Shown here: piece after piece, positions 1-64,000 of the stretch
How the letters are laid out: every line of letters starts with the position of its first letter
Position numbering within the stretch: position 1 is the stretch's first letter
Assembly: GCF_009647605.1 (NCBI RefSeq)
Contig: NZ_WJIF01000016.1
Span: 1-64,000, forward strand
Length of the DNA: 64,000 nt
Source: Agromyces agglutinans
GTDB lineage: Bacteria > Actinomycetota > Actinomycetes > Actinomycetales > Microbacteriaceae
Reading direction: 5' to 3'
Notes under the pieces: generated by a model
Told to the model about the DNA's origin: nothing
Seen by the model: the letters and a program-made list of their open reading frames with translations, nothing else
Databases searched by the model: none
Translations under genes and position numbers: made by a program

Positions 1-172
1 ACGAGACGCCCGACGGCTTGATCACGAACAGGTCGGCACCCGGAACGCGGCCCGAGACATTGCCGCCCGTCCACACCACCAGGCCGTACCGAGTCAGCTC
101 GGCGTGCAGTCGCGCGACGTCGGCGCGCACGCGGGCGATCGCGACCTCGACCTGGGGTCCGAACGAGCTCAT
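1..172 (-). CDS. araD: L-ribulose-5-phosphate 4-epimerase, N-terminal part (runs off the window)
   Basis: The first 57 codons are visible; the 3' part lies beyond position 1. The translated stretches GLVVWTGGNVSGR (about residues 30-42) and FVIKPSGVS (about 49-57) match the substrate-binding N-terminus of the class II aldolase/epimerase AraD, which converts L-ribulose-5-phosphate to D-xylulose-5-phosphate in the cytoplasm. The zinc-binding histidines expected later in the family cannot be seen. The ATG at 172 follows GGAGG with about 8 nt spacing, so the start is well supported. It is the first gene after the AraR-like regulator at 436-1548 and a palindromic operator lies upstream at 338-353, so it probably heads an arabinose operon (inferred). 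Confidence 0.88.
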   Translation of the reverse strand, partial: MSSFGPQVEVAIARVRADVARLHAELTRYGLVVWTGGNVSGRVPGADLFVIKPSGVS

Positions 173-337
173 CGCGCCGCCTCCGAGATCGCGACCGCGA
201 TCGAGCCGCCGGGGCGGCGGCTGTGCGCGACGGGGGCGGCGAACACGTGGACTCCTTCGTCAGGGGCGGTGCTGGACTCGGCGCCGGAACGGGCCCGGGT
301 GCGTGCCGAAGCGTTCGACGCTTTCGTGTGACACCCG

Positions 338-353
338 ATGTGACCGTTCACAT
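338..353. promoter_or_regulatory. Operator-like palindrome before araD
   Basis: ATGTGACCGTTCACAT is an inverted repeat with ATGTGA half-sites and a central CG, typical of LacI-family operators. The same half-sites recur three times in front of the LacI-type gene (1557-1572, 1610-1624, 1625-1639), so the regulator at 436-1548 probably represses araD and itself. The rest of 173-435 shows no gene I can support. Confidence 0.75.
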
Positions 354-435
354 GGCGGTGCCCATAGTAACCCCAGGGCCGATCGAACTGTCAACTCGGC
401 CGAATCACGGAACGGTAACGCCGCTCGGAACGCGG

Positions 436-1548
436 TCAGAATGCCGGCCGCCCGGTCGACGCGCGCACGACGAGCTCCGGCACGATCGTCTTCGGCCCGG
501 CCGGGGCCGAAGGCTCCCCCGGCGCGGTGCCGGCGTCGCCGGCACCGCCCGGGCCGCCCGCCGAGGCCGCCGCCTCGGACGGGGCATCCGCATCGCCGAT
601 CAGCAGCGACACGCAGCGCCGGCCGAGCTCGGCGAAGTCCTGGCGCACCGTCGTGAGCGGCGGCCAGAAGTGCGCCGCCTCGGGGATGTCGTCGAAGCCG
701 ATGATGGACACGTCGCGGGGCACGTCGAGGCCGGCGTCGTGGATCGCGTGCATGAGCCCGAGCGCCATCTGGTCGTTCGAGGCGAAGATCGCCGTGAAGT
801 CGCGCACCCTGAGCAGCTCCCGGCCCACGTGGAAGCCGAAGTCCGCCGTCCAGTCGCCGAGGATCGGCGCGGTCGTCGGCACGTCCTGCGCGCTCATCTC
901 CTCGAGGAACCCGCGCATGCGAGCCTCGGCCTCGATCCAGTCCTGTGGGCCGGTGAGGTGGTAGATGTTGCGGTGCCCGAGCTCGATCAGGTGCCGCGTG
1001 GCGAGTCGCGCGCCGGCGATCTGGTCGACCGAGAGCGCATGGTCGGGGTCGCGCCCGGTCGACTGCAGCGTCACGTAGGGCACGTCGATCGACAGCTGGG
1101 CGAGCGTGTCGAACACGCGCACCTGCGGCGCGATCACGACGAGCCCCTCGATGCCCTGCGCGGCGAGGTGGGCCAACCCGTCGGCGATCGACGCGGGGTC
1201 GGAGGCCTCGATGTTCGCCGTGCTCACCCAGTACCCGGCGGCCCGCGCGGCACCCTCGATCGCCGCGATGCTCGAGGCCGGGCCGTACTGGGTGCTCGTG
1301 CTCGACGCCGACAGGATGCCGAGCGTGCGCGACCGGTGCGTGACGAGCGCCCGCGCGGCGCGGTTGGGCGTGTACTGCAGCTCGGCCATGACGTCGAGCA
1401 CGCGCTGCTTGGTCTCGGGCCGGATGCTCGGATGGTGGTTCAGCACGCGCGACACCGTCTGGTGCGAGACGCCGGCGAGGCGCGCCACGTCGCGGATGCT
1501 GGGGGGCCGGCCCCGCTGCGACTCTGCTGTCACGGCGACCTCGTTCAC
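436..1548 (-). CDS. LacI-family transcriptional regulator, AraR-like
   Basis: A 370-residue cytoplasmic repressor of normal LacI length. The N-terminal helix-turn-helix (about 20-39, IRDVARLAGVSHQTVSRVLN) is followed by a periplasmic-binding-protein-like sensor domain with ASNDQMALGLM and IIGFDDIPEA signatures. The extreme C-terminus carries a low-complexity Gly/Ala/Pro stretch before the final VVRAST motif. The GTG at 1548 has no clear ribosome site; the GTG at 1533 has GAGG at a good distance and may be the true start. Adjacent araD and shared operators suggest it senses arabinose or a derivative, as the LacI-type AraR of Corynebacterium does; the ligand is inferred. Confidence 0.85.
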   Translation of the reverse strand: MNEVAVTAESQRGRPPSIRDVARLAGVSHQTVSRVLNHHPSIRPETKQRVLDVMAELQYTPNRAARALVTHRSRTLGILSASSTSTQYGPASSIAAIEGAARAAGYWVSTANIEASDPASIADGLAHLAAQGIEGLVVIAPQVRVFDTLAQLSIDVPYVTLQSTGRDPDHALSVDQIAGARLATRHLIELGHRNIYHLTGPQDWIEAEARMRGFLEEMSAQDVPTTAPILGDWTADFGFHVGRELLRVRDFTAIFASNDQMALGLMHAIHDAGLDVPRDVSIIGFDDIPEAAHFWPPLTTVRQDFAELGRRCVSLLIGDADAPSEAAASAGGPGGAGDAGTAPGEPSAPAGPKTIVPELVVRASTGRPAF

Positions 1549-1556
1549 GTCACGGC

Positions 1557-1572: not shown

Positions 1573-1609
1573 GCGACGTGCACCAGTATGCCCGAAGTCC
1601 GCGAACGGC

Positions 1610-1639: not shown

Positions 1640-1704
1640 GGGCGAACGGGCCGTCTTTCCGCTCCGGATGCCACGGATCCCGGCTGCGGGGTGACAATGG
1701 GGCG

Positions 1705-2229
1705 GTGTCCGACTACATGAGGAACCTGCCGCTCAGCTGGAAGGAGCGGCGCGACGAGTCCGACGTGCACTCCGACTGGCGGGCCGAGCTCGACGAGGTG
1801 CTCGCGCAGGGCGAGGCGATCTCGGCCGGGCTCGGCGACGGGGCATCCGATGCCGCCGACGCGCTCGCCGCGAGCCTGCGCGCACTCGGCGCCGACAGCC
1901 GTGCGCGACGCAAGGTGCCCGTGCGCCTGCTGGCCCGCGGGGTCCTCGACCTCCTCGCGCTGGCGCGAGAGGCATCCGTTCGACCGCCCCTCGCCGAACG
2001 CACCGGCGGAGCCGTCGCCCTCTACCTGGCCGCCAAGGCGCCGACCGAGATCCGGGCGGTCACCCGCGGCCACGCGCTGCGCGCGACCGACGCCGATTGG
2101 GAGTTCGGCCACGGGCCGGTGCTCGAGGCGCCGGCGGTCGAGATGATCGAGTTCCTCGCGGGCCGCAGCCTCAGCGCACCGCGGCCGGCCGCACCCGAGG
2201 GGCCAGCAGCACCGCCAGCACCGCGATGA
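1705..2229 (+). CDS. Conserved protein with MDMPI-like C-terminus
   Basis: A 174-residue cytoplasmic protein starting at GTG 1705. The C-terminal part contains RGHALRATDADWEFGHGP followed by a stretch ending FLAGRSL, resembling the end of maleylpyruvate isomerase/mycothiol-dependent (MDMPI, TIGR03083-like) proteins. The usual N-terminal DinB-like half is not obvious; residues 1-100 look helical and charged. The function is not known. Its last 59 bases overlap the convergent MFS gene. A copy of the CGGATGCC octamer lies at 1665 in its upstream region. Confidence 0.55.
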   Translation: MSDYMRNLPLSWKERRDESDVHSDWRAELDEVLAQGEAISAGLGDGASDAADALAASLRALGADSRARRKVPVRLLARGVLDLLALAREASVRPPLAERTGGAVALYLAAKAPTEIRAVTRGHALRATDADWEFGHGPVLEAPAVEMIEFLAGRSLSAPRPAAPEGPAAPPAPR

Positions 2230-3590: not shown

Positions 3591-4421
3591 TCACATCTCC
3601 TCGTGCGTGTCGGGGTCGCCGCCCCAGAGCCGGCCGCGTTCGAGCGCCGCGATGGCCTCGACCTCTTCGGGCTGCAGCGCGAACCCGAACACGTCGAGGT
3701 TGGCCCGGCGCCGCACGGGGTCGGCCGACTTCGGGATGGGGATCGCCTCGAGCTCGACGTGCCACCGCAGCACGACCTGCGCGGGCGTCACGCCGTACCG
3801 AGCCGCGAGCTCGGTGATGACCGGCTCCTGCAGCAGCTCGCTGCGCTTGGCCAGCGGGCTCCAGCTCTCGGTGCGGATGCCGTGCTCGTCGTGGAAGGCG
3901 CGCAGCTGCGCCTGCGGGAAGTAGGGGTGGAGCTCGACCTGGTTGACGACCGGGAGCAGGCCCGTCTCGCGCTCGAGCCGCTCGAGCATGGGCTGGGTGA
4001 AGTTCGAGACGCCGATGGAGCGCACGAGGCCCTTCTCGCGCAGCGTGATCATCGCGCGCCACGTGTCGACGTACTTGTCGGCGCTGGGGTTCGGCCAGTG
4101 GATGAGGTAGAGGTCGACCCACTCGAGCCCGAGCCGGCGGCGCGACTCCTCGAAGCTCGTGAGCGTCGCCTGCGACCCGTGGTGCCGGCCGGGCAGCTTC
4201 GTCGTGATGACGAGGTCGCTGCGGTCGACCGTCGTGCGCGCGATCGCCTCGCCGACCGCCGCCTCGTTGCCGTAGTTGTAGGCCGTGTCGATGAGGCGGT
4301 AGCCGTCGTCGATCGCGGTGAGGATCGCCTCGACCCCCGGCTCGTCGTCGAGCCCGTAGGTGCCGAGCCCGAGGGCGGGGATCCGGTTGCCGTCACGAAG
4401 GGCGTACTCGGGCGCGGTCAT
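3591..4421 (-). CDS. Aldo/keto reductase
   Basis: A 276-residue NADPH-dependent cytosolic reductase of the AKR5 type (2,5-diketo-gluconate reductase/YqhE-like). The catalytic tetrad is visible: Asp45 and Tyr50 in IDTAYNYGNE, Lys75 in TTKLP and His108 in YLIHWP. GVSNF and the C-terminal IPKS cofactor motif are also present. I chose the ATG at 4421 because GGAG lies 5-8 nt upstream; an in-frame extension to 4457 is possible but lacks a good site. The physiological substrate is not determined by the sequence. Confidence 0.9.
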   Translation of the reverse strand: MTAPEYALRDGNRIPALGLGTYGLDDEPGVEAILTAIDDGYRLIDTAYNYGNEAAVGEAIARTTVDRSDLVITTKLPGRHHGSQATLTSFEESRRRLGLEWVDLYLIHWPNPSADKYVDTWRAMITLREKGLVRSIGVSNFTQPMLERLERETGLLPVVNQVELHPYFPQAQLRAFHDEHGIRTESWSPLAKRSELLQEPVITELAARYGVTPAQVVLRWHVELEAIPIPKSADPVRRRANLDVFGFALQPEEVEAIAALERGRLWGGDPDTHEEM

Positions 4422-4473: not shown

Positions 4474-5418
4474 TCAGGAATCCGTCGGCACCGCAGGGAG
4501 CTCGGCGAAGGCGCGCACGGGGAACGTTCCGAAGCCCTCGATGCGCGGTGGCACGGCCGTGAACCGGGCGCCGCGCGCGGGCACGCGCTCGAGCGCGGCG
4601 AGGTGCTCGACGACGTGGATGCCCGCGTCGAGCAGGATCGAGTGCGCCGGCCGCTCGCCGCCCGACTCGGTGTCGTCGATGTTGAGCGAGTCGATGCCGA
4701 CGAGCGCGACGCCGACGTCGGCGAGGTACTGCGCGCCCGCGCCGGTGAGGAACGGCGCGCCGGTCGCGTACGCGGGCGTGCCGAACCGGCTCACCCAGCC
4801 GGTGTCCAGCAGTACCGCGGCGCCGCGCAGGTCGCGTTCGAAGAACACCTCGGCGGGGATGCCGCGCTCGGTCGCGTCGGCGAGGTGGAAGACCTCGGCC
4901 CGCAGCCCCACGAGGGTCTCGAGCGGCAGCGAGGCGAGGTCGCCGCCGCCCTCGTACCGGTGGAACGGGCTGTCGAGGTACGTGCCGGTGTTGCCGGCGA
5001 GGTGGATGACGTCCATGCGGAACTCCGTGCCGGGCGCGTAGTTCGCCCGCGAGGCCTCGCGCGTGAGGTGCGGCGTGATCGTCGGCGCGGGGATGCCCGG
5101 GTAGGTCACGAGCCCCTCGCGGATCGGGTGGCTGAGGTCGACGAGCTCGCCGCGGGCCGGGGCATCCGCTCGCTCGCCGGGCTCGCCGACCGCGTCGGCG
5201 ACGCCCCGCGATCCCTTGTGCGCCTCCTCGACGACCTGCAGGTTCGTCAGGGCGACGGATGCCACGAGCGCGAGCCCGAGGTGACGCACGAGCAGTTCGG
5301 CGACCTGGGTCTCGGTCACGTCGGCCGAGGGCAGGTCGAGGCGGAAGCCGTCGGCCCGCAGCCCTCCCCCGTTCACGAACGCGATGTCGGCGTCGAAGGC
5401 GGCGCGGTACTGGGTCAT
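4474..5418 (-). CDS. Cyclase-family (kynurenine formamidase-like) hydrolase with N-terminal extension
   Basis: A 314-residue protein. Residues 1-72 form a separate domain ending EEAHKGSRG; residues 90-314 are a cyclase/isatin-hydrolase fold starting VDLSHPI. The usual metal motif HxGTHxDxPxH appears here as NTGTYLDSPFH (143-153): Asp and the last His remain, but the first two His are Asn and Tyr. I recall this extended variant from other actinobacteria. It probably hydrolyses an amide or cyclic substrate, but the changed metal ligands make that uncertain. ATG 5418 has GAGGAGC upstream and overlaps the permease stop by 4 bp (ATGA), so the two are translationally coupled. Confidence 0.75.
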   Translation of the reverse strand: MTQYRAAFDADIAFVNGGGLRADGFRLDLPSADVTETQVAELLVRHLGLALVASVALTNLQVVEEAHKGSRGVADAVGEPGERADAPARGELVDLSHPIREGLVTYPGIPAPTITPHLTREASRANYAPGTEFRMDVIHLAGNTGTYLDSPFHRYEGGGDLASLPLETLVGLRAEVFHLADATERGIPAEVFFERDLRGAAVLLDTGWVSRFGTPAYATGAPFLTGAGAQYLADVGVALVGIDSLNIDDTESGGERPAHSILLDAGIHVVEHLAALERVPARGARFTAVPPRIEGFGTFPVRAFAELPAVPTDS

Positions 5419-6785
5419 GCGGTGGGCTCCTCAGGGGCGGGGATCGAGGCGGTTCGGCGAGCGCGGATGCGCCGCACCACGGTCACGACGACGGCGGCGG
5501 CCGCGAGCAGCAGCGGCACCAGCAGGTTCGACCAGGCCAGCACGAGCAACCCCACGGTCATCACGGTGGCGACGACGGCGAGCCACCAGCCGAACGACCA
5601 GCGCCGCAGGAGCAGGGTGGCGGCGACCATGCCGGCCGCGTAGATCGCGACCATGTTCGACGTGTGGACGAGGATGAAGGCCGTCAGGTCCAACCCGTTC
5701 GCGAGCATGAGCGCGAAGTACACGGCGACGAGGCCGGCGGTGAGCAGCAGCGCTCGGCGCGGCACCTCGCCGGCGGCCGCGCCCTTCGCGAAGAAGCGGG
5801 GCAGGTCGCCGTCGCGACCGAGGGCCGCACCCAGCTTGGCGAAGGCGGGCAGGTACGCGTTCATCACGCCGAGGCAGACGATGGCGGTCACGATCGCGAC
5901 GAGCGTCGACCCGATGCCGGGCGCGGTGGAGTCGACGAGGTCGAGCAGCGGCACGACCCCCGTGCCGGCCTCCTCGCCGAGCACGCCCACCGTCACGACC
6001 TGGAGCCCGAGGTAGCCGGCGCCGACGACGACGATCGCGATGCCGGTGGCGAGCGGGATGATGCGTCGCGGGTTGCGGAACTCGCCCGCGATGTGGGTGC
6101 CGACCTCCCACCCGGCGAACGCCCACACGAAGAGGCTGATGGCCGTGCCCACACCCGCCCACCCGTGCGGGAGGAACGGCTGGAAGTTCGAGGCCTCGAC
6201 GGCCGGGAAGGTCACGCCGACCACGCCGACCACCGTGGCGATCAGCAGCCCGGTCAGCGCGAACTGCGCCCACCCGGCGACGCGCACGCCGAACCAGTTC
6301 GCCACGAACGGCGGGATGAAGACGGCCAGGGCGATGATCGGCACGGCCGAGCGGTCGACGCCGAGCACGGCCACCACGTACTCGCCGCCGAGCACGGCGA
6401 GCACGGGCGCGCCGACGCAGACGCCGAAGAAGAACCAGTACCCGGTCATGCGCGCGGCCGTGTCGCCGAGCGTGCGGCGGACGTAGCTCGCGACGCCTCC
6501 CGCGTCGGGGTAGCGCGATGCGAGGGCTGCGAAGGTTCCCGCGAGCGGGATCGACAGGACCAGCACGGCCGCCACGGCGACGATCGAGGCGGGTCCGGCG
6601 GCCGCGGCGGCGAGGCCGGGGAGCACGAGGATGCCGGTGCCGAGGACGCTGGCGATGTACAGCGCGGTGCCCTGCCCGAGGCCGAGACTGCCGCGGCCCG
6701 CCGGTGGGTGGTCATAGGCCGGGTCGGCGGCGATCGCCGGGCCCGTGGCATCCGTTCTCGTGGTCACCTGCTCAGTTTGGAGCAT
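5415..6785 (-). CDS. APC-family amino-acid permease, YjeH-like
   Basis: About 456 residues with about 12 membrane segments. The N-terminal region (LGQGTALYIASVLGTGILV) has the APC glycine-rich unwound TM1, followed by RYPDAGGVASYVRRTLGD, close to the E. coli methionine/branched-chain amino-acid exporter YjeH. Lying next to metB and cbs, it may export methionine or a related amino acid (inferred). The start is uncertain: ATG 6785 is used; GTG 6767 and an extension to 6818 are alternatives and none has a strong ribosome site. The 3' end overlaps the cyclase-family gene by 4 bp. Confidence 0.75.
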   Translation of the reverse strand: MLQTEQVTTRTDATGPAIAADPAYDHPPAGRGSLGLGQGTALYIASVLGTGILVLPGLAAAAAGPASIVAVAAVLVLSIPLAGTFAALASRYPDAGGVASYVRRTLGDTAARMTGYWFFFGVCVGAPVLAVLGGEYVVAVLGVDRSAVPIIALAVFIPPFVANWFGVRVAGWAQFALTGLLIATVVGVVGVTFPAVEASNFQPFLPHGWAGVGTAISLFVWAFAGWEVGTHIAGEFRNPRRIIPLATGIAIVVVGAGYLGLQVVTVGVLGEEAGTGVVPLLDLVDSTAPGIGSTLVAIVTAIVCLGVMNAYLPAFAKLGAALGRDGDLPRFFAKGAAAGEVPRRALLLTAGLVAVYFALMLANGLDLTAFILVHTSNMVAIYAAGMVAATLLLRRWSFGWWLAVVATVMTVGLLVLAWSNLLVPLLLAAAAVVVTVVRRIRARRTASIPAPEEPTA

Positions 6786-6853: not shown

Positions 6854-8011
6854 CTACAGGCGCGCGAGCGCGCCGTCGATATCGGCGAGCAGGTCGTCGA
6901 CATCCTCGATGCCGACCGACAGCCGCACGATCGACTCGGGCACCTCGGCCTCGGTGCCGCGCACCGACGCGTGGGTCATCGACCACGGGTGGTTCACGAG
7001 CGACTCGACGCCGCCGAGCGACTCGGCGAGCTGGAACAGCTCCGTCGACTCGGCGAACCGGCGCGCCGCCTCGCCGCCGCCGGCGAGCTCGATCGAGAGC
7101 ATGCCGCCGAAGCCCGACATCTGGCGCGCCGCGAGCTCGTGCCCCGGATGCGACGGCAGGCCCGGGTAGAACACCCGGGCGATGCCGTCGTGCGATTCGA
7201 GCCGCTGCGCGATCGCGAGGGCGTTCCGGCTGTGCCGCTCCATGCGCACGCCGAGCGTCTTGATGCCGCGGGTCGTGAGGAACGCGTCGAACGGCCCCGA
7301 GACGGCGCCGGCCGCGAACTGCGTGAACCCGACGCGCTCGGCCAGCTCCTCCTGCCCGGCGGCGAACACCAGCGCGCCGCCGACCACGTCGGAGTGGCCG
7401 CCCAGGTACTTCGTGGTGGAGTGCGCGACGACGTCGGCGCCGAGCGCGATCGGCTGCTGCAGCGCTGGGCTCGCGAACGTGTTGTCGACGACGGTCAGCA
7501 CGCCGCGCTCGCGGCCGAGCGCGGCGAGCGCCGCGACGTCGGAGATCTTCATGAGCGGATTCGACGGCGTCTCGACCCAGAGCACCCTGGTCGCCGGCTC
7601 GATCGCCGCGCGCACCGCGTCGAGGTCGCTCGTGTCGACCGTCGAATGGCGGATGCCCCAGGCCCCGAGCACGCGGCGGACGAGCCGGTGCGTGCCGCCG
7701 TAGACGTCGTCGCCGATCACGACGTGGTCGCCCGGCGCGAGCACCGTTCGCAGGAAGGCGTCCTCGGCAGCCAGGCCGGACGCGAACGAGAGGCCGCGGA
7801 CGCCGCCCTCGAGCGCCCCGAGCTGCGACTCGAGGGCCGTGCGCGTGGGGTTGCCGCCGCGCGAGTACTCGTAGCCGCTCCGGAGCCCGCCGATGCCGTC
7901 CTGCACGTAGGTCGAGGTCTGGTAGATCGGTGGGATGACCGCGCCCGTCGTCGGGTCGAAGGCCTGGCCCGCGTGGATCGCGCGGGTGTCGAAGCGTGCG
8001 TCGTCGTGCAT
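6854..8011 (-). CDS. metB: Cystathionine gamma-synthase (PLP enzyme)
   Basis: A 385-residue cytosolic enzyme of the Cys/Met metabolism PLP family. EYSRGGNPTRTALE (about 48-61), the cofactor-lysine motif VAHSTTKYLGGHSD (Lys201) and a C-terminal SIRLSVGIED-type motif are present (here SIVRLSVGIEDVDDL). It joins an activated homoserine with cysteine to give cystathionine, or works in the reverse direction as a gamma-lyase; sequence alone does not separate these. It starts 40 bp after cbs on the same strand and is probably co-transcribed. ATG 8011 is chosen because family similarity begins at once; the ribosome site is weak. Confidence 0.9.
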   Translation of the reverse strand: MHDDARFDTRAIHAGQAFDPTTGAVIPPIYQTSTYVQDGIGGLRSGYEYSRGGNPTRTALESQLGALEGGVRGLSFASGLAAEDAFLRTVLAPGDHVVIGDDVYGGTHRLVRRVLGAWGIRHSTVDTSDLDAVRAAIEPATRVLWVETPSNPLMKISDVAALAALGRERGVLTVVDNTFASPALQQPIALGADVVAHSTTKYLGGHSDVVGGALVFAAGQEELAERVGFTQFAAGAVSGPFDAFLTTRGIKTLGVRMERHSRNALAIAQRLESHDGIARVFYPGLPSHPGHELAARQMSGFGGMLSIELAGGGEAARRFAESTELFQLAESLGGVESLVNHPWSMTHASVRGTEAEVPESIVRLSVGIEDVDDLLADIDGALARL

Positions 8012-8051: not shown

Positions 8052-9431
8052 TCAGTGGGAGAGGTAGGCGAGCAGGTCGCTGCGCGTGATGACGCCGAGC
8101 GCCTTGCCGCCATCGGTGACGAGCAGCGCCGGCGCCGAGCCGAACGCCTGGCGCGCGGTCACGACGGGCTCGTTCACGCCGATGAGGGGCAGCGGGTCGC
8201 CGACCACCGTCTCCACCTTGTCGGTGAGCTTCGCCTCGCCCGTGAAGACCAGGTCGAGCAGCTCCTGTTCGCGCAGGGATCCGCGCACCTCGCCGAGCAC
8301 GACGGGCGGCTCGGCCGAGATGACGACCAGCTGCGAGACGCCGGTGCCGGTCATCCGGTCGATCGCCTCCCGGATGGTGTCGCCGGGGTACGCGTACACG
8401 AGCGGCGCCGTGCGGTCGGCCTTGGACGCGAGGACGTCGGCGATCGTGTGGCCCTCGGGGGCGTTGCCGAAGCCGTAGGCCCGCATCCACTTGTCGTTGA
8501 AGATCTTGCCGAGGTAGCCGCGACCGCCGTCGGGCAGCAGCACGACGAAGACGTCGTCGGCGGTGACCTCGGGACGGGCGGCGGCCTCGAGCGCGGCGAC
8601 GACGGCCATGCCGGACGAACCGCCGACGAGGATGCCCTCTTCCCGAGCCAGGCGACGCGTCATCGCGAACGACTGCGCGTCGGTCACGGCGATGATCTCG
8701 TGCGGCACGGCGGGGTCGTACGCCCCGGGCCAGAAATCCTCGCCCACACCCTCGACGAAGTACGGCCGGCCGGTGCCGCCCGAGTACACCGACCCCTCGG
8801 GGTCGGCGCCGATGATGCGCACGCGGTCGCCCGAGGCCTCTCGCAGGTAGCGGCCGGTACCGGTGATGGTGCCGCCCGTGCCGACGCCGGCGACGAAGTG
8901 CGTCACCCGCCCGTCGGTGTCGCGCCAGATCTCGGGACCGGTCGTCTCGTAGTGCGAGCGAGGGCCGTTGGGGTTCGCGTACTGGTTCGGCTTGAACGCG
9001 CCGGGGATCTCGCGCACGAGACGGTCGGAGACGCCGTAGTACGACTCGGGGCTGTCGGGCGCGACCGCGGTCGGCGTGACCACGACCTCGGCGCCGTAGG
9101 CCGTCAGCACGTTGATCTTGTCTTCGCCGACCTTGTCGGGCAGCACGAAGACGCAGCGGTAGCCGCGCTGCTGGGCGACGAGCGCGAGCCCGACGCCGGT
9201 GTTGCCCGAGGTCGGCTCGACGATCGTGCCGCCCGGCTTCAGGTCGCCGCTGGCCTCGGCGGCATCGATGATGCGCGCGGCGATGCGGTCCTTCGAGGAC
9301 CCGCCCGGGTTCAGGTACTCGAGCTTCACGAGGACCGTGGCATCCGTCACGCCCTGCGTGACCCGGCCGAGCTTGACGAGCGGGGTGTCGCCCACGAGGT
9401 CGACGATGGATTCGGCGTAGTTCATGTTCAT
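8052..9431 (-). CDS. cbs: Cystathionine beta-synthase
   Basis: A 459-residue PLP enzyme that condenses homocysteine with serine (or O-acetylserine) to cystathionine. The PLP lysine is Lys47 in NPGGSSKDRIA, and the phosphate-binding loop is TSGNTG (about 75-80) with GTGGTITGTG further on. The C-terminal third (about 340-459) holds a pair of CBS domains, the usual regulatory module. The ATG at 9431 follows ACAGGAA at a longish distance; an ATG two codons later is an alternative. A cysteine-codon leader peptide lies 95 bp upstream, so expression is probably cysteine-responsive (inferred). Confidence 0.93.
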   Translation of the reverse strand: MNMNYAESIVDLVGDTPLVKLGRVTQGVTDATVLVKLEYLNPGGSSKDRIAARIIDAAEASGDLKPGGTIVEPTSGNTGVGLALVAQQRGYRCVFVLPDKVGEDKINVLTAYGAEVVVTPTAVAPDSPESYYGVSDRLVREIPGAFKPNQYANPNGPRSHYETTGPEIWRDTDGRVTHFVAGVGTGGTITGTGRYLREASGDRVRIIGADPEGSVYSGGTGRPYFVEGVGEDFWPGAYDPAVPHEIIAVTDAQSFAMTRRLAREEGILVGGSSGMAVVAALEAAARPEVTADDVFVVLLPDGGRGYLGKIFNDKWMRAYGFGNAPEGHTIADVLASKADRTAPLVYAYPGDTIREAIDRMTGTGVSQLVVISAEPPVVLGEVRGSLREQELLDLVFTGEAKLTDKVETVVGDPLPLIGVNEPVVTARQAFGSAPALLVTDGGKALGVITRSDLLAYLSH

Positions 9432-9584: not shown

Positions 9585-11147
<1,563 letters not shown>

Positions 11148-11975: not shown

Positions 11976-12676
11976 GCGACGCCGAGCCGAGCCGTCGGCG
12001 GCCGGCGCGGCTCGCCGCGCTCGTCGCGGCGGGCATCGCGCTCGTCGTCGTCGCGATCGTCGCCTTCTCGTTCGGGCGGCTCTCGACGCTCTCCGACCCG
12101 ACGCCCGCCGACCGCAGCGCCGACGCGGGGTTCGCGCGCGACATGCAGGTGCACCACCTGCAGGGCGTCGAGCTGGCGATGCTGATCCGCGACCGCTCGG
12201 AGGCCGACGACATCGCGCACCTCTCGTACGACATCGCCACCAGCCAGGCCCAGCAGGCCGGCCAGATGTACGGATGGCTCGAGCAGTGGGGTCTCTCGCA
12301 GGCCGGCTCGGAACCGTCGATGACGTGGATGACGCGGCCCGCGCGCGGTGGGTCCGACGGGTCGGGCCACGATGGGCATTCGGATGCCTCGGGGTCGGCC
12401 GCCGCGGGCGCCGCGACGGCGCACGAACCGGGTTCGCCGATGCCGGGCCTCGCGACCCCCGAGCAGGTCGCGCAGCTCGAGGCGTCGACGGGCGTCGAGG
12501 CCGAGGAACGCTTCCTCGAGCTGATGATCGCCCACCACCGCGGGGCCGTCGAGATGGCCGAGGCGGCGCTCGACCGGGCCGACTCCGGCGTCGTGTTGAA
12601 CCTCGCCCGGGCGATCGTCGCGAGCCAGTCCTCCGAGATCGAGCTGATGGAGCGCATGCTCGCCGAGCGCGAGTGA
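11972..12676 (+). CDS. DUF305 membrane-anchored protein
   Basis: A 234-residue protein with one N-terminal membrane segment (about 13-35) and a four-helix-type outer domain. The two DUF305 His-Met motifs are visible: MQVHHLQGVELAML and MIAHHRGAVEMAEAAL, separated by a His/Gly/Ser-rich linker. Some relatives bind copper; the function here is inferred. The GTG at 11972 overlaps the DUF3105 stop (GTGA), so the two genes form a translationally coupled operon. Confidence 0.85.
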   Translation: MSDAEPSRRRPARLAALVAAGIALVVVAIVAFSFGRLSTLSDPTPADRSADAGFARDMQVHHLQGVELAMLIRDRSEADDIAHLSYDIATSQAQQAGQMYGWLEQWGLSQAGSEPSMTWMTRPARGGSDGSGHDGHSDASGSAAAGAATAHEPGSPMPGLATPEQVAQLEASTGVEAEERFLELMIAHHRGAVEMAEAALDRADSGVVLNLARAIVASQSSEIELMERMLAERE

Positions 12677-15287: not shown

Positions 15288-15318
15288 CGGATGCCGCGGG
15301 CCGGGCCCGCGGCATCCG
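15288..15318. terminator. Terminator hairpin of the aglEFG-like operon, built from an octamer pair
   Basis: A perfect 15-bp inverted repeat with a 1-nt centre, starting CGGATGCCGCGGGCC and ending GGCATCCG. It lies 20 bp after the 15338-16327 permease stop. There is no run of T after it on the minus strand. The stem ends are the two orientations of the dispersed octamer discussed in the findings. Confidence 0.7.
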
Positions 15319-54357: not shown

Positions 54358-55922
54358 GACGCACCCCCCAGGTCCGCGACATCCGTGCCGCCGACGCGCA
54401 GCGTGCCGGTGGCCGCCGCGAGGATGGTCGCCTCGTCGCTGCGCGCGGGCAGCTCGGCGGAGGCGCGGCCGTCGTGCATGACCAGGATGCGATCGGACAT
54501 GCCGATCACCTCGGGCAGCTCGGACGAGATCATCAGGATCGCGACCCCTTCCTTCGCGAGTCGTCGCATGAGTCGGTAGACGGCGACCTTGGCGCCGACG
54601 TCGATGCCGCGCGTCGGCTCGTCGAGGAGCACGACGCGGGGCTTGGTCGCGAGCCACTTGGCGAGCACGACCTTCTGCTGGTTGCCGCCCGAGAGGTACT
54701 GCACCTCCTGGTCGACGCCCTGCGAGGCCACCTCGAGGCTCGTGAGGACGCCCGGGAGCTCGCGGCGAACCGCGCCGGTGCGACGCGAGAACACCGAGCG
54801 GATGACGAGCAGCGCGTTGTCGGCGATCGACTGGTTGAGGGCGAGGCCCTGCGCCTTGCGGTCCTCGGTGATGAGGGCGAGGCCCGCACGCACCGCCTGG
54901 CGGGCGCCGGTCACGCGCACCTCGCGGCCGTCGAGCCGCATCGATCCGCGCGTGAACGGCGCGACGCCGAAGACGGCCTCGACGAGCTCGGTGCGGCCCG
55001 ACCCCTGCAGGCCCGCGATGCCGACGATCTCGCCCGCGCGCACCTCGAGGTCGACGGCGTCGACGTAGTCGTTGCCCGCGCCGCGCAGTTCGAGGCGCGG
55101 CTCGCCGAGCTCGGTGCCCGGCTCGGCGTCGGGATAGTAGGCCTCGATCGGCCGGCCGACCATGCGGCGCACGAGCTCGTCGGTGTCGAGGTCGGCGGCG
55201 GGGTCGGTCGAGACGAGCGCGCCGTCCTTCAGCACGGTGATCGTGTCGCACAGGTCGAAGATCTCGCGCAGCCGGTGCGAGACGTAGAGGATCGCGACGC
55301 CGCGCTCCTGCAGCCGCCGGATGATCGAGTAGAGCAGCTCGACCTCGTGGTCGGCGAGCGCGGCCGTGGGCTCGTCCATCTGGATGACGCGGGCGTCGGT
55401 CGAGAGGCCCTTCACGATCTCGACGATCTGCTGCTCGGCGACGGTGAGGCTGCGCACCGGGGCATCCGCGTCGATGAAGTCGATGCCGAGCTCGTCGAGG
55501 AGCTCGCGCGTGCGGCGCACCATGCCCTTGCGATCGACGAACCCGCCCTTGCGCGGCTCACGGCCGAGGAAGACGTTCTCGGCGACGCTGCGCTCGGGCA
55601 GCAGGTTGAACTCCTGGAAGACGGTCGCGAGGCCCGCCTGCGCCGCCTCGACGGGGTGGTGGAAGTCGACGTCCGCGCCGCCGAGTCGCACCGTGCCGGC
55701 GTCGCGTTCGTACACGCCAGCGAGGATCTTCATGAACGTGGACTTGCCCGCGCCGTTCTCGCCGACGAGGCCGTGCACCTCGCCCGCACGCAGCTCGAGG
55801 CCGACGCCGCGCAGCACGGTCACACCGAAGAAGGACTTCTCGAGGCCGCTCGCGACGAGCACGGGCTCGGCGGTCGCCGTGCCCGTCGCTCCGCTCGCGC
55901 CCGGGTTCGTCTGGTCGCTCAC
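54354..55922 (-). CDS. Sugar ABC ATPase, RbsA/MglA-like (two ATPase domains)
   Basis: A 522-residue double ATPase. Domain 1 (about 20-245): Walker A GENGAGKST, signature LTVAEQQ, Walker B VIQMDEPTAAL. Domain 2 (about 260-505): degenerate Walker A GLQGSGRTE, signature LSGGNQQK, Walker B VVLLDEPTRGID. It powers uptake through the two permeases encoded downstream. GTG 55922 has GGAGG 7 nt upstream and overlaps the oxidoreductase stop by 4 bp. Confidence 0.93.
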   Translation of the reverse strand: MSDQTNPGASGATGTATAEPVLVASGLEKSFFGVTVLRGVGLELRAGEVHGLVGENGAGKSTFMKILAGVYERDAGTVRLGGADVDFHHPVEAAQAGLATVFQEFNLLPERSVAENVFLGREPRKGGFVDRKGMVRRTRELLDELGIDFIDADAPVRSLTVAEQQIVEIVKGLSTDARVIQMDEPTAALADHEVELLYSIIRRLQERGVAILYVSHRLREIFDLCDTITVLKDGALVSTDPAADLDTDELVRRMVGRPIEAYYPDAEPGTELGEPRLELRGAGNDYVDAVDLEVRAGEIVGIAGLQGSGRTELVEAVFGVAPFTRGSMRLDGREVRVTGARQAVRAGLALITEDRKAQGLALNQSIADNALLVIRSVFSRRTGAVRRELPGVLTSLEVASQGVDQEVQYLSGGNQQKVVLAKWLATKPRVVLLDEPTRGIDVGAKVAVYRLMRRLAKEGVAILMISSELPEVIGMSDRILVMHDGRASAELPARSDEATILAAATGTLRVGGTDVADLGGAS

Positions 55923-57031
55923 GCCGCCACCTCCGCCCACTCGCCGGATGCCGCCGAGGCGAGCACCGCCTCGGTCACGCGCACCGCGCGCAGCCCGTCG
56001 TCGAAGGTCGGCAGGCCTTCGGGGCGGTCGCCCGCGATGGCCGCGTAGACGTCGGCGACGAACGCGTTGAACGCGTCTTGATAGCCCATCGGATGCCCCG
56101 CCGGTACGAGCGAGAGGCGCGCCGCGTCGGCCGAGAGCCGGGCGGCGTCGCGCTCGACCAGCTGGGAGGCGTCGGTGCGCCCGATCCAGAGTCGCTCGGG
56201 CCGCTCCTGCTCGAAGCGGACGCTGGCCGCGGTGCCGCCGAGCTCGAGCACGAGCCCGTTCTTGTGCCCTGGCGCGACCTGGGAGACGAGCAGCGTGCCG
56301 ACCGCGCCGCCCTCGAGTTCGACGATGACGGCGACCAGGTCTTCAGTGGCGATGTCGGTGTTCTGCGACCGCTCGCCGTAGACCGTGCTCGTCACGGCGT
56401 TCAGGCGCGTGACGCGCGCGCCCGCGGTGAACTCGAGCAGGTCGACGAGATGGCTGCCGATGTCGGCGAAGGCGCGCGACGGCCCGCCGAGGCCGCGGTC
56501 GACGCGCCAGTCGTCGTCGTGGGGCGTCGCGAGCCAGTCCTGGAGGTAGGCGCCGTGCACGCTGACGAGCCGGCCCGCGTCGCCGCCCGCGATGCGCGCC
56601 CGCGCCTCGCGGGCCATCGGGTGGAAGCGGTACACGAAGGGCACTGCGGCGACGAGGCCCCGCTCGGCGGCGAGCGCCGTGAGTTCGGCCGCGGTCGCCG
56701 CGTCGGTCGCGAGCGGCTTCTCGCAGATGACGTGCTTGCCGGCCTCGAGGGCGGCACGAACGATGCGGGCGTGCGTGGCGTTCGGGGTGCAGACGTGCAC
56801 CACGTCGACATCGGCCGCCGCGTCGAGCAGGAGGTCGTCGAGCGAGTCGAAGGAGCGCTGCAGGCCGAGTCGGCCGGCCGCCTCCCGCGAGCGTTCGGGT
56901 GACGAGGATGCCCCGCCCGCGAGCTCGGCGCCCGCCGCCCGTGCCGCACGGGAATGCACGGCGGCCATGAAGCCGCCCCCGACGAAGCCGGCCCGTATCG
57001 TGCGGGCGGGAGCCGTGACATCCGTTGTCAT
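55919..57031 (-). CDS. Gfo/Idh/MocA-family oxidoreductase
   Basis: A 370-residue NAD(P)-dependent dehydrogenase: Rossmann motif FVGGGFMAAVHSRAARAAG (about 16-34), EKPLATDAATAAEL with the catalytic Lys, and DWRVDRGLGGPSRAFADIGSH in the substrate domain. It leads the operon 57031-48876 and presumably oxidises the imported sugar or a derivative before the epimerases act (inferred). ATG 57031 has no ribosome site; ATG 57049 is an alternative. Confidence 0.88.
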   Translation of the reverse strand: MTTDVTAPARTIRAGFVGGGFMAAVHSRAARAAGAELAGGASSSPERSREAAGRLGLQRSFDSLDDLLLDAAADVDVVHVCTPNATHARIVRAALEAGKHVICEKPLATDAATAAELTALAAERGLVAAVPFVYRFHPMAREARARIAGGDAGRLVSVHGAYLQDWLATPHDDDWRVDRGLGGPSRAFADIGSHLVDLLEFTAGARVTRLNAVTSTVYGERSQNTDIATEDLVAVIVELEGGAVGTLLVSQVAPGHKNGLVLELGGTAASVRFEQERPERLWIGRTDASQLVERDAARLSADAARLSLVPAGHPMGYQDAFNAFVADVYAAIAGDRPEGLPTFDDGLRAVRVTEAVLASAASGEWAEVAA

Positions 57032-57146: not shown

Positions 57147-58334
57147 ATGGTCGACATCAGCCGGGGATCCGCACTCGGCATCTCGGGGGCGAGCGAGCTG
57201 TTCCAGCTGCTCCGCGACGGCGTGCCCCGTACCCGCGCCTCGCTGGCGCAGGCGACCGGCCTCGCGCGATCGACCATCGCCGCGCGCGTCGACGAGCTCA
57301 TGCGACTCGGCCTCGTGACCCCCGTCGCCGACGCGGCCTCGACCGGCGGGCGACCCCCGTCGCAGTTTGCGCTGAACCCCGGCGCGCGCCTCGTGCTGGC
57401 CGCCGACCTGGGCGCCTCGCACGCCACGATCGCCCTCACCGACCTCGCCGGCACCGTGCTCGCGCGCCACGGCGAGCCGATGGACATCGCCGACGGCCCC
57501 GAGGCGGTGCTCGGCTGGATGGTCGACGCCGGCCGCGAGCTCGTCGACGGCCTCGGCCGCGACCGGCACGACCTCGTCGCCATCGGCATCGGCGTGCCCG
57601 GCCCGGTCGAGCACTCCACGGGGCGGCCGGTGAACCCGCCGATCATGCCCGGCTGGGATCGCTTCGACGTGCCCGGCTGGGTGCAGCAGCACCTCGAGGT
57701 GCCCGTGCTCGTCGACAACGACGTGAACATCATGGCCCTCGGCGAGCGCGCGCAGGCGTGGCCCGCCGTCGAGCACCTCGTCTTCGTCAAGGTCGCCACC
57801 GGCATCGGCTCGGGCGTCATCTCCGGAGGCCTCCTCCAGCGCGGGGCGCAGGGCATCGCGGGCGACATCGGCCACGTGCAGGTCGCCCGCGGCGCGGGCG
57901 TTCCCTGCCACTGCGGCAATCGCGGATGCCTCGAGGCCCTGGCCTCGGGCCCCGCCATCGCCCGCGCGCTCCGCGAACAGGGCGTCGCCGCGAACTCGGG
58001 CAGCGACGTCATCGACCTGGTCAAGCGCGGCGACCTCGATGCGATCCAGGCCGTTCGCCAGGCCGGCCGCGACATCGGCGAGGTGCTGACGGCCTGCGTG
58101 AGCCTGGTGAACCCGTCGGTCATCGCGATCGGCGGCTCGATGGCGCGGGCCGGCGAGCACCTCATCGCCGGCGTGCGCGAGGTCGTCTACACGCGCTCGA
58201 TGCCCCTCGCGACCGAGCACCTCGCGATCGTGCAGTCGGCGGCGGCGGCCGACGCAGCCGTGCTGGGCGCGAGCATGCTCGCGATCCACCACGCGCTCTC
58301 GCCCGAGGGCATCGACCAGCTCGCGGCCCGCTGA
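57147..58334 (+). CDS. ROK-family transcriptional regulator
   Basis: A 395-residue regulator: winged helix (TRASLAQATGLARSTIAARV, about 29-48), sugar-kinase-like domain with DLGASHATIALTDLAG and GIGVPGPVEHSTGRPVNPP, and the ROK zinc motif CHCGNRGCLEAL. Like NagC/XylR it should bind a sugar and control the divergent operon at 57031. A TTTACT box ends 7 nt before the ATG at 57147 and no Shine-Dalgarno site is present, so the mRNA may be leaderless. Confidence 0.88.
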   Translation: MVDISRGSALGISGASELFQLLRDGVPRTRASLAQATGLARSTIAARVDELMRLGLVTPVADAASTGGRPPSQFALNPGARLVLAADLGASHATIALTDLAGTVLARHGEPMDIADGPEAVLGWMVDAGRELVDGLGRDRHDLVAIGIGVPGPVEHSTGRPVNPPIMPGWDRFDVPGWVQQHLEVPVLVDNDVNIMALGERAQAWPAVEHLVFVKVATGIGSGVISGGLLQRGAQGIAGDIGHVQVARGAGVPCHCGNRGCLEALASGPAIARALREQGVAANSGSDVIDLVKRGDLDAIQAVRQAGRDIGEVLTACVSLVNPSVIAIGGSMARAGEHLIAGVREVVYTRSMPLATEHLAIVQSAAAADAAVLGASMLAIHHALSPEGIDQLAAR

Positions 58335-60273: not shown

Positions 60274-61058
60274 GCACCCTGCTGATCCACGGCCTCGGGG
60301 CCGATCGCCGTCAACCGCTCGAACTGTTCAGCCCCGTGCTCGCCGCGATCGACGCCGCGACCGGCCAGGTCGTCGCCGTCGACGTCCGGGCGCACGGCAC
60401 CTCGCACGAGGTGGGATCCCCCGCCGACTTCGCGCTCGACCGGCTCGCCGCCCAGGTCGCCGAGGCCGCCCTGGCCGAGTTCTCCGCCGAAGCCGCCGCC
60501 GAGCCGGTGACCGTGATCGGCATCTCGATGGGTGCGGCGATCGCCCTCCGACTCGCAGCCGACGCCCTGCTGCCGGTCGAGCGCGCCGTGTTCGTGCGAC
60601 CGTCGTTCGACGACACGTCGCTGCCCGATCACCTGCGGGTCTTCCCCGTCATCGGCGATCTCCTGCACGACGGCGGCGCCGGTGCCGTCGACCAGTTCCG
60701 CGAGACCGAGCTGTTCCACGCCGTCGCCGCGCAGTCCCGTGCGGGTGCCGCGGCGCTGCTCGCGCAGTTCTCGGCACCGCTCGCGGTCGAACGTGCGATG
60801 CGCCTGGTCGAGGTGCCGCGCAACCGCGCGTTCGCCGACGAGTCCGAGCTCGCGGAGATCTCCGGCCGCGGCATCCGTTCGCTCGTCCTCGGCGCCGAGA
60901 ACGACCCGGTGCATCCGCTCGAGCTCGCCGAGCGCTGGGCCGGCGCGCTCGACGCGCCGCTCGAGACGGTTCCGCCGCGCGACCGCGGTCAGCCCGCGCA
61001 GACGGCCGCGATGCGCGACGCGGTCGGCCGCTGGCTCGCACTCACGGCGCGGATGTAG
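60270..61058 (+). CDS. Alpha/beta hydrolase
   Basis: A 262-residue hydrolase: LLIHGLGADRRQPLELFSPV (oxyanion region), nucleophile Ser in VIGISMGAAIALRLA and acid in LVLGAENDPVHPLELA. The final His, expected near the C-terminal DRGQPAQTAAM, is not clear, so activity is uncertain. GTG 60270 overlaps the nuclease stop (GTGA). Its last 17 bases overlap the convergent ArsR-type gene. Confidence 0.75.
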   Translation: MSTLLIHGLGADRRQPLELFSPVLAAIDAATGQVVAVDVRAHGTSHEVGSPADFALDRLAAQVAEAALAEFSAEAAAEPVTVIGISMGAAIALRLAADALLPVERAVFVRPSFDDTSLPDHLRVFPVIGDLLHDGGAGAVDQFRETELFHAVAAQSRAGAAALLAQFSAPLAVERAMRLVEVPRNRAFADESELAEISGRGIRSLVLGAENDPVHPLELAERWAGALDAPLETVPPRDRGQPAQTAAMRDAVGRWLALTARM

Positions 61059-62085: not shown

Positions 62086-62140
62086 GAAGCACAACGCTAC
62101 ATCGATTCCATGCGGTCGCCGCTTCTGGGAGAAACGAACC

Positions 62141-63472
62141 GTGACCCGCTCCCTCACCGCCCGGCTCGCGGCATCCGTCGCCGACCCGATCCTGCGCATC
62201 CTCGTCACCGCAACGTTGATCAGCCGTGTCGGCCGCGGCATCTTCCTGGCCGTCACCGTGCTCTACTTCACGCTCATCGTCGGCCTGTCGGCCGGCGAGG
62301 TCGCGGTGATCCTCGCCGCGTCGAGCGCGGCCGGCGTGCTCGCATCCTTCGCGAGCGGATGGCTCGCCGACCGGTTCCCCGTGCGCCGCCTGCTCCTGGC
62401 ATTCACGGCGCTCGAGGCGCTCGGCCTGATCTGCTACGCGCTGATCGGCGATTTCGGCACGGCCCTCGCCATCGCCATCGTCGTCGGCGCCTTCGGACAG
62501 GCCGCCAACACGTCGCGGATGGCGATCCTCGCGCGCGCGTTCGCCCCGGAGGGCCGCGTGCACGCGCGCGCCGTGCTGCGAACCGTCACCAACCTCGCGA
62601 TCGCCGTCGGCTCGGGCGTCGGCGCGATCGCCCTCGCGATCGGCACCGCCGACGCCTACCGCTGGCTGCTGGTGATCGCGGGCATCTCGTACCTGCTCGC
62701 CCTCGTACGGCTCGTGCGGCTGCCCGCGTCGGTCGACGAGATCCCCGCCGGCGAGCCCGTCGAGCCGCTCCGCACCGAGACCGGCTCGCTCGACGCGGTC
62801 GCCAACCGGCGCGCCGCCCGCCGCGCCGCCGCCGTGCACTCCCCCTGGCGCGACCCGCGCTACCTGCTGCTGACCGCGCTGTGCGCGGTGTTCGGCATGC
62901 AGTTCGGCGTGGGCGAACTGGCCGTGCCGCTCTGGATCACCCAGCAGACCGAGGCGTCCGAGGTGCTCGTGGCCGCCGTGCTGATCCTCAACACCGTCGT
63001 GGTCATCTGCTTCCAGGTGCCGCTCTCGCGCGGCACGCACGACTTCCGCGTCGCCGGTCGAGCCGCGGGCATCGCGGCGTGGCTGATGGCCGGAGCGTGC
63101 GTCGTCTACGCCCTCGCGGCGGGCATCCCGGCCTGGATCGCGATCATCGCGATCATCCTCGCCGCGCTCGGGCACGCGTTCGCCGAGGTGCTCTCACAGG
63201 CCAGCGGCTGGGGCCTGAGCTTCGAGCTCGCCGACCCGGTGCGCATGGGCACCTACCAGGGCCTGTTCGGGGCCGGCTACTCCATCGGCGCGATGGCCGC
63301 GCCGCTCGTCGTCGCGGGAACCACCGAATCGATGGGCTTCGCCGGGTGGATGCTCCTCGCCGCGGTCTTCCTCGCGTCGGGGCTCGGCATCCGCGCGATC
63401 GCTCGCCGGGCGGCCCGCACGGCGGAACGCGTCGCGGACGCGCCGGCGGTCGCGGCCTCGATCACGGGCTGA
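62141..63472 (+). CDS. MFS transporter
   Basis: A 443-residue 12-segment exporter: SRVGRGIFLAVTVLYFTLIV (TM1), GWLADRFPVRRLLLAFTALE (motif A), and a long central loop of about 45 residues. GTG 62141 has GGGAGA about 9 nt upstream. It is divergent from the DUF5937/ArsR gene with 55 bp between starts, so is probably its target. Confidence 0.86.
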   Translation: MTRSLTARLAASVADPILRILVTATLISRVGRGIFLAVTVLYFTLIVGLSAGEVAVILAASSAAGVLASFASGWLADRFPVRRLLLAFTALEALGLICYALIGDFGTALAIAIVVGAFGQAANTSRMAILARAFAPEGRVHARAVLRTVTNLAIAVGSGVGAIALAIGTADAYRWLLVIAGISYLLALVRLVRLPASVDEIPAGEPVEPLRTETGSLDAVANRRAARRAAAVHSPWRDPRYLLLTALCAVFGMQFGVGELAVPLWITQQTEASEVLVAAVLILNTVVVICFQVPLSRGTHDFRVAGRAAGIAAWLMAGACVVYALAAGIPAWIAIIAIILAALGHAFAEVLSQASGWGLSFELADPVRMGTYQGLFGAGYSIGAMAAPLVVAGTTESMGFAGWMLLAAVFLASGLGIRAIARRAARTAERVADAPAVAASITG

Positions 63473-63534
63473 AGAGCTGCGCGGAGCACCGATCGCGGGC
63501 GCGCCGCGGCCAGCGGGCGGGCGATGCTTCGGGT

Positions 63535-64000
63535 TCAGCCAGCGAGGGCCAGCACGCCGAGCGTGACGAGGCCGGCGACGGAGAAGACCCCGGTGGCGGC
63601 GACGGCGACGACGCTTCCGACCGCGCGTCGACGCGAACGACGCGCGAGTGACGGCAGGTCGGCATCCGTGGCTCGGGTGGGCTCGTCGGCGTCGACCCCG
63701 AGCGGCGGCGCAGAGGCCGCCGCGATCGTGCGGACCGGCCGCACCGGGTAGGCGTCGATCGCACCGGCGCCCGCTCCGGGGCGGGCCGGACGCAGCGTCG
63801 CCGGATCGAGGGGCGCGGGCTGCAGGGCGCGCCGGCGCTTCGTGGACCGCACGCGGCGACTCGTGCGCAGTGGCGCAGCCTCGGCCTCGGGCGCCTGGTG
63901 CACTCGGTCGACGACGACCACCGTGCGGTCGGCGTCGGCGTCGGCTTCCGACTCGGCGTCCGCGGCGCGGCGCACGACGACCGTACGGTCGGCCTCGTCG
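63535..64000 (-). CDS. C-terminal part of an unknown membrane-anchored protein
   Basis: The reading continues past position 64000, so the N-terminus is missing. A repeat of ADRTVVV occurs twice near the edge, followed by Arg-rich and Pro-rich linker sequence and one C-terminal membrane segment (VGSVVAVAATGVFSVAGLVT). The tail RTVVV pattern may belong to a signalling or surface protein, but I do not recognise the family. Confidence 0.5.
   Translation of the reverse strand, partial: DEADRTVVVRRAADAESEADADADRTVVVVDRVHQAPEAEAAPLRTSRRVRSTKRRRALQPAPLDPATLRPARPGAGAGAIDAYPVRPVRTIAAASAPPLGVDADEPTRATDADLPSLARRSRRRAVGSVVAVAATGVFSVAGLVTLGVLALAG

Follow-up and report, generated by a model that had tools for sequence, protein, structure and literature searches.

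A dispersed octamer of Agromyces agglutinans as a probable DNA uptake signal with dialects in other Microbacteriaceae

The 64,000-nucleotide window of the Agromyces agglutinans genome analysed here (contig NZ_WJIF01000016.1, positions 1 to 64,000) is densely interspersed with a single octamer, CGGATGCC, whose full form reads CGGATGCCnCG. Judged from its excess, its arrangement and its distribution in the family, this word probably serves as a DNA uptake signal in Agromyces, and related words found in other Microbacteriaceae are presumed to be its dialects. On present evidence it appears to work most like the DNA uptake sequence (DUS) of the Neisseriaceae and the uptake signal sequence (USS) of the Pasteurellaceae, a membership in either class not being claimed.

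The window contains 57 exact copies, which read on the plus strand 28 times as CGGATGCC and 29 times as GGCATCCG. The initial annotation had counted about 55 (28 and 27) and had assumed a chance level of two to four copies, which proved to be too low: 100 dinucleotide shuffles yielded 6.7 copies (standard deviation 2.8, maximum 14) and an order-3 Markov model predicted 7.5. Under the latter model the octamer ranks first among all 8-mers of the window. The flank extension described earlier was recovered on the downstream side, where position +9 is C in 50 and position +10 is G in 47 of the 57 copies, resulting in the full word CGGATGCCnCG. Variants with A or G in place of the first C are also raised in the window (14 and 13 copies versus 5.5 and 3.7 expected), and the first base therefore seems to be less important. 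The word is non-palindromic, its full form contains an internal N and is loose at the edges, and A/T-rich flanks were not seen around its copies in the window. A genome-wide count, set beforehand as a check, gave a result far from background with 3543 copies in 3.91 Mb (26 contigs) versus 171 copies (83 and 88 by strand) of the reversed word used as control; the strand counts of the word itself, 1775 and 1768, say little on replichore skew when taken alone. In 418 kb of the one-contig Agromyces genome G004 the octamer is again the top 8-mer under the order-3 Markov model. The placement of the window in this genus agrees with a protein encoded in it, whose six closest relatives out of 80 loci all belong to Agromyces. 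Altogether, the excess is solid, general and larger than first claimed.

The excess is independent of protein sequence and codon usage. Genes were called with a small codon-model script, not taken from an annotation, yielding 57 coding sequences in the window and 343 in twenty 20-kb stretches sampled from the single contig of G004. The coding sequences of the window hold 47 copies compared with 8.8 (standard deviation 2.0, maximum 13) in 60 within-gene shuffles of synonymous codons, and those of G004 hold 228 compared with 44.8 (standard deviation 5.5, maximum 60). The proposal that the DNA word is selected rather than the protein, for which this codon modelling had been fixed beforehand as a check, is thereby supported. 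Furthermore, the word is denser between genes than within them (1.43 versus 0.82 copies per kb in the window and 1.19 versus 0.67 in G004). In-gene copies fall mostly in three of the six frame-orientation classes and encode the contexts T/A/S/P-Asp-Ala, Gly-Ile-Arg and x-Ala-Ser-x, which come close to the Asp-Ala-Ser and Glu-Ala-Ser contexts described at the outset. One called gene of G004 (L116 7111-7238) was found to contain seven successive copies in the same orientation which encode Glu-Ala-Ser repeats; this run looks like the word spreading through a protein linker.

Neighbouring copies no more than 25 nucleotides apart in the window and in G004 occur 12 times in hairpin order, once in the opposite order and 11 times in direct order, seven of the 11 direct pairs being derived from two in-gene runs. 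Seven of the 12 hairpin pairs are intergenic and five are located inside called genes. The two hairpins of the window, which the initial annotation had read as terminator stems, are real and both intergenic. The inverted pair at 15288..15318 (15288-15295 on the plus and 15311-15318 on the minus strand) follows a called minus-strand gene at a distance of about 20 nucleotides from its 3' end (fold z -4.5), and the pair at 29607..29645 (29607-29614 on the plus and 29638-29645 on the minus strand) separates two convergent called genes, one of which encodes the ribosomal protein L7/L12 (fold z -6.0 on the plus and -7.6 on the minus strand). Sitting past gene ends and with RNA fold z values from -4.5 to -7.6, both are predicted to form terminator-like stems. 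The spacing of copies is near random (gap coefficient of variation 1.07). By strand, G004 shows 81 and 74 copies in the first ten stretches and 66 and 78 in the last ten; the heterogeneity over all 20 stretches (chi-square 23.8 on 20 degrees of freedom, falling to 14.8 once the stretch with the in-gene run is left out) indicates no bias by region, so that the absence of strand bias noted earlier also holds in this relative.

Turnover of single sites was followed by aligning the window with Agromyces loci, which covered 18 window sites in six named relatives and one G004 stretch. The word was kept exactly in 20 of 63 site-by-relative comparisons versus 382 of 1340 for 150 composition-matched control words, and in the reverse direction of alignment in 20 of 59 versus 382 of 1228. 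Individual copies drift as the rest of the sequence does, while copy numbers on the two sides are similar, a combination that fits a drive making copies anywhere rather than a function at fixed loci. A locus-specific role of single sites is disfavoured since they are conserved no better than the control words. The turnover of USS sites resembles that of the rest of the genome.

The family survey comprised 199 genomes from 85 genera of Microbacteriaceae, of which 148 large and fairly complete ones were used for ratios. All 19 genomes of the genus that were counted carry 1195-4440 copies of CGGATGCC, and single genomes of other families of the order (n=11) carry 157-560. Across the 199 genomes the counts range from below the control to more than 4000, and the ratio of CGGATGCC to the reversed word ranges from 0.37 to 39 in the 148, exceeding 3 in 104 genomes and 10 in 45 and remaining below 1.5 in 10. 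Rich genomes include those of Agromyces ramosus (4000 copies), Microbacterium arabinogalactanolyticum (4079), Leifsonia flava (3681), Herbiconiux daphne (3076) and Cryobacterium glucosi (2300), and poor ones those of two Frigoribacterium (334 and 232), two Curtobacterium (419 and 439) and two Frondihabitans (374 and 422). The comparison with other Microbacteriaceae suggested in the initial annotation thus revealed a widespread excess, complemented by other words in most of the poor genomes screened closely.

In nine poor genomes or genera, 60-207 kb each were screened for other over-represented words, and a replacement word was present in six. These are GGAGGCGCG in two Frigoribacterium (66 copies in 102 kb versus 3.2 expected), GGATGCGC in Leifsonia sp. 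Root227 (77 versus 12.3), GGATGCTG in G175/G113 (68 versus 6.2), CGGATGCGC in G057 (26 versus 4.3), GCGGATCG in G149/G080 of genus g63 (43 in 100 kb versus 5.3) and AGTTCCTG in Frondihabitans (22 versus 1.7, dispersed with 7, 7 and 8 copies over three stretches). No clear single word emerged in the other three, G046, G191 and Curtobacterium, and nothing clear was detected in 20-43 kb stretches of further poor genomes (e.g. Leifsonia sp. Leaf336 with L. shinshuensis, G043, G074, G077 and G084), although G084 is rich in GGAGGCGC genome-wide.

Dialect words were counted genome-wide in 86 genomes of 84 genera. GGATGCTG peaks in G113 with 3355 copies (control 98), none of the remaining 85 genomes having more than 777. 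GGAGGCGC reaches 3062, 2767 and 1249 copies in three genomes, the two highest belonging to two genera, and does not exceed the control in most of the other 83, the control word being itself common. GGATGCGC is graded rather than exclusive, the highest count of 2097 (control 178) being followed by 1929, 1869, 1799 and 1673, with 703 (control 183) in the A. agglutinans genome itself. Within genus g13, G030 carries 1864 copies of CGGATGCC and 575 of GGATGCTG, whereas G113 carries 835 and 3355, respectively; the dialect has changed within one genus. The core GGATGC is common to the commonest words and is not found in GGAGGCGCG, GCGGATCG or AGTTCCTG.

The survey also brought to light further over-represented words. 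In the three Frondihabitans stretches (L032, L201, L202) a GCAGGAACTCG-type word unlike the GGATGC family is dispersed, with AGTTCCTGCG occurring 12 times versus 0.2 expected. HIP1-like palindromes, GCGATCGC and ATCGCGAT, reach about 3 to 8 times expectation in Leifsonia (L037, L052) and Cryobacterium (L010-L014), and AGCACAGCAC-type short tandem words are over-represented in both a Salinibacterium metagenome-assembled genome (L033, L203, L204) and G046 (L093, L135-L137). Outside the Microbacteriaceae, GTATGCCG occurs in Ornithinimicrobium (L057, L061, L188-L194) 23 times versus 1.9 and 33 times versus 1.8, i.e. at 12 to 18 times expectation, and is one base off the Microbacterium word GGATGCCG. 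Another strongly over-represented word family is held by 15 Arthrobacter-type loci among L050-L080 (309 kb; CGACGTCG 234 versus 34, CGACGGCG 336 versus 81). They include L070, which is titled Sporosarcina beigongshangi and is probably mislabelled, given its 67 percent GC, its Arthrobacter-type words and its probe match among Arthrobacter.

Genes predicted to encode machinery for DNA uptake were detected in nearly all genomes of the family. ComEC (PF03772) was found in 195 of the 199 genomes, and in G004 its gene adjoins a ComEA-like gene with SLBB and helix-hairpin-helix domains. T2SSF genes occur in all 14 genomes of a first set and in 194 of the 199. The A. agglutinans genome contains a compact pilus locus between acsA and topA which is predicted to encode a TadA-type ATPase (TIGR03819), a T2SSF protein with two domain matches (fused TadB/C), a DUF4244 Flp-like pilin, a TadE_Rv3655c minor pilin and an Rv3654c-type TadE-like protein. 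The profiles of these five genes match in all 32 chosen genomes, the Flp match of G191 and of G085 lying in the same frame as TadE; the DUF4244 Flp pilin was found in 192 of the 199 genomes and TadE in all 43 chosen ones (above the cut-off in 37). Based on these profile matches, a Flp/Tad pilus locus and ComEC are nearly universal in the family. Since ComEC and DUF4244 are near-universal, they cannot separate rich from poor genomes, and the presence of competence genes was rejected as a predictor of the word.

Two word-poor genomes have an unusual pilus locus. In G191 the Flp/Tad locus is split (L152 9370-12369, L168 7731-10259), with TadB shortened beside a transposase pair (PF01527, rve); the TadE-type genes are located on a separate contig with a TIR-domain gene upstream, and a separate Flp pilin was not found in this genome. 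G191 holds 313 copies of CGGATGCC, while its congener G134, which has all five genes together, holds 2791. G085, with odd flp and TadE, holds 277 copies (control 129). A further tad locus of G004 encodes TadB and TadC as separate proteins. An impression from 14 genomes that the dialect goes along with the type of the additional pilus (PilC-type, or with TadB and TadC separate) was not upheld: the 88 genomes with a PilC-like match include many CGGATGCC-rich ones, and the GGATGCGC users G040, G055, G101 and G102 have none.

A number of observations weigh against the interpretation as an uptake signal. ComEC was also found in 10 of 14 control genomes, including E. coli, so that its presence does not prove competence, and both ComEC and DUF4244 are present where the word is at background; many word-poor genomes match ComEC, DUF4244 and, where it was looked for, TadE. 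Besides G191 and G085, five genomes with weak or split DUF4244 matches (G069, G087, G136, G147, G217) hold 395-2491 copies, and two of the seven genomes lacking a DUF4244 match, all of which are incomplete or fragmented, still show an excess (G141 with 864 and G204 with 629 copies). As for the link to comEC/comEA genes, suggested as a check in the initial annotation, gene presence predicts neither the word nor competence. The excess correlates weakly with the number of T2SSF matches (rho 0.37 in the 148 genomes; rho 0.30, p 0.016 with one genome per genus, n=64; rho 0.23, p 0.06 for these 64 when the better of two words is taken; all uncorrected for kinship). Among 32 sequences each, compared by eye, no residue pattern in TadE or the Rv3654c-type protein tracks the dialect beyond kinship, and both proteins are regarded as receptor candidates only. 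The words furthermore lack one common core, as GGAGGC, GCGGATCG and AGTTCCTG differ, and Microbacterium goes unmentioned in the literature matches listed.

Mobile DNA was examined as well. No Microbacteriaceae plasmid was among the matches listed (best 40 of at least 5000, with a window ABC transporter as query), and phages were therefore used. Three Microbacterium phages contain 0.275, 0.20 and 0.15 copies of CGGATGCC per kb versus 0.65 in Microbacterium DNA (2.7, 2.4 and 1.5 times the Markov expectation versus 4.8 in the host) and 0.375, 0.20 and 0.475 copies of GGATGCCG per kb versus 0.95 (2.5, 1.8 and 3.4 times versus 5.3). Two phages of other hosts show CGGATGCC at 1.5 and 1.8 times Markov. 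The phages are thus 2-5 times poorer than the host, yet above Markov, and the depletion is partial. Codon-atypical genes are not poorer in the word, the lowest quartile holding 63 copies versus 13.1 expected and the highest 52 versus 10.3.

The likeness to DUS and USS claimed in the initial annotation stands for the excess, the use of both strands, the terminator-like pairs, the lack of a regional strand bias and the independence of codons, while the tests on phages, atypical genes and pilus number turned out weak or negative. As in the Neisseriaceae, there are thousands of copies, intergenic inverted pairs with the potential to form terminator stems, and dialects a few bases apart (PMC3630211). 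There, DUS are described as lying in permissive and intergenic regions, all genomes with a DUS dialect as having inverted pairs at terminators, and a core of three bases as being retained across eight dialects; the first two of these features recur in Agromyces. In contrast to DUS, the Agromyces word is unrelated in sequence, its commonest core is GGATGC instead of CTG with no core common to all words, the dialects range wider than those of the Neisseriaceae, and the high-GC Gram-positive host possesses a Flp/Tad locus and not a ComP-bearing type IVa pilus. The USS of the Pasteurellaceae, a strongly enriched word of nine bases, occurs in two variants within that family (PMC12616744) and shares with the present case the strong enrichment of a short word with variants in one family. 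It differs in that the Agromyces word is unrelated to it and lacks A/T-rich flanks and that the host has no outer membrane to cross. According to PMC12616744 (2025), the Neisseriaceae and the Pasteurellaceae are the only families known to have the uptake-signal trait. Among the literature matches listed, mainly open-access papers, no such word is reported in Actinobacteria, in line with the initial annotation, which knew of none; the letters of the word in PMC12089995 and PMC3388099 belong to a probe or primer.

The machinery resembles that of Micrococcus luteus, whose transformation requires the genes of two tad clusters, the second with a fused TadB/TadC and a 77-residue Flp (PMC4322843); the need for tad genes is also covered in the review PMC6370729. 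In both cases one locus combines tadA, a fused tadB/C, the gene of a small Flp pilin and TadE-type genes; ComEA/ComEC are likewise shared, as is, in G004, an additional tad cluster in which tadB and tadC are separate. Unlike here, transformation has been demonstrated in M. luteus, and an uptake sequence goes unmentioned in PMC4322843.

From these features we infer competence, an uptake preference, a receptor and a drive, which would act together as follows. The Flp/Tad (or type IV) pilus of a competent cell would grip DNA bearing the word, a minor pilin probably making the contact, ComEA/ComEC would then bring in one strand, and recombination would swap in the matching chromosome stretch. Because word-bearing fragments are proposed to enter more often, new copies arising by mutation would tend to spread and lost copies would tend to be restored. 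The genome would thus fill with the word wherever proteins permit, most easily between genes and at terminators, and a drift in the taste of the receptor would slowly shift the whole genome to a new dialect.

Four other explanations were weighed. The word might be recognised by an enzyme linked to DNA modification or restriction, which would preserve it, as in the case of HIP1 with its orphan methyltransferases. The cyanobacterial HIP1 is likewise a dispersed octamer occurring far above chance and is tied to methyltransferases (PMC4390886), and the palindromes GCGATCGC and ATCGCGAT are mildly enriched in some relatives. However, HIP1 is a palindrome, whereas neither the Agromyces word nor the main dialect words are; taking furthermore into account the internal N and loose edges of the full word and the intergenic position of seven of the 12 hairpin pairs, a modification target seems unlikely. 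We consider it somewhat less likely again that the word is a Chi-like signal steering a recombination nuclease or resembles the FtsK-orienting polar sequences (KOPS) steering the FtsK translocase. The octamer length, the genome-wide spread and the species-specific words would fit Chi. Chi and KOPS are skewed along replichores, however, and the 28 and 29 copies by strand in the window, the lack of heterogeneity over the 20 G004 stretches and the 12 to 1 preference for inverted over opposite-order pairs are unexpected for either, in agreement with the lesser fit of such roles stated in the initial annotation.

The genome-wide occurrence on both strands with random spacing would also agree with a binding site of an abundant nucleoid or chromosome-organising protein. 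This appears improbable, and more so than a Chi- or KOPS-like role, as it needs a further assumption to account for the dialect switch between the congeners G030 and G113, the terminator-like pairs and the neutral turnover. Least probable of all, to the point of being hardly credible, is an origin of the word as a side effect of mutation bias, preferred codon pairs or protein motifs: although the in-gene copies are concentrated in three of the six frame-orientation classes, synonymous shuffling strips four fifths of them, intergenic DNA is denser in the word, the genome holds 20 times fewer copies of the reversed word, and two congeners are almost ninefold apart (2791 and 313 copies). An uptake signal therefore remains the best single explanation, ahead of all four, and is held to be probable.

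Apart from the two inverted pairs, exact matches to CGGATGCC in the window are located on the plus strand at 1665..1672, 3874..3881, 5256..5263, 7650..7657, 10526..10533, 12381..12388, 13914..13921, 14721..14728, 16568..16575, 20322..20329, 21306..21313, 27209..27216, 30943..30950, 36286..36293, 37026..37033, 41618..41625, 46367..46374, 46952..46959, 50310..50317, 52058..52065, 52147..52154, 52722..52729, 53705..53712, 55945..55952, 56090..56097 and 57923..57930. On the minus strand they are located at 583..590, 1842..1849, 1971..1978, 5161..5168, 6747..6754, 9339..9346, 13771..13778, 14050..14057, 20131..20138, 21792..21799, 23099..23106, 23639..23646, 26586..26593, 31103..31110, 31247..31254, 34097..34104, 40204..40211, 41154..41161, 42066..42073, 46434..46441, 50600..50607, 53320..53327, 55461..55468, 60870..60877, 62170..62177, 63386..63393 and 63661..63668. 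The window genes checked by family search, mostly parts of sugar ABC transporters and LacI regulators besides a PALP/CBS-domain enzyme (used as probe) and ribosomal L7/L12, showed no evident tie to the word.

More tentatively, the word may belong to a third, independent uptake-signal system, which would be actinobacterial and run by a Flp/Tad pilus in place of a type IVa pilus, with TadE-type minor pilins as receptors, and whose dialects, switching within a genus, might bound the gene exchange of the family and perhaps of the order (e.g. GTATGCCG). We regard this wider proposal as possible rather than probable. If it is true, the trait arose again, with other machinery, in a high-GC Gram-positive family. 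Hidden natural competence would then be predicted across the Microbacteriaceae, strains that are hard to transform might be approached with simple designs of tagged DNA, and the many natural dialects would lend themselves to the finding of receptors and to tests of molecular drive.

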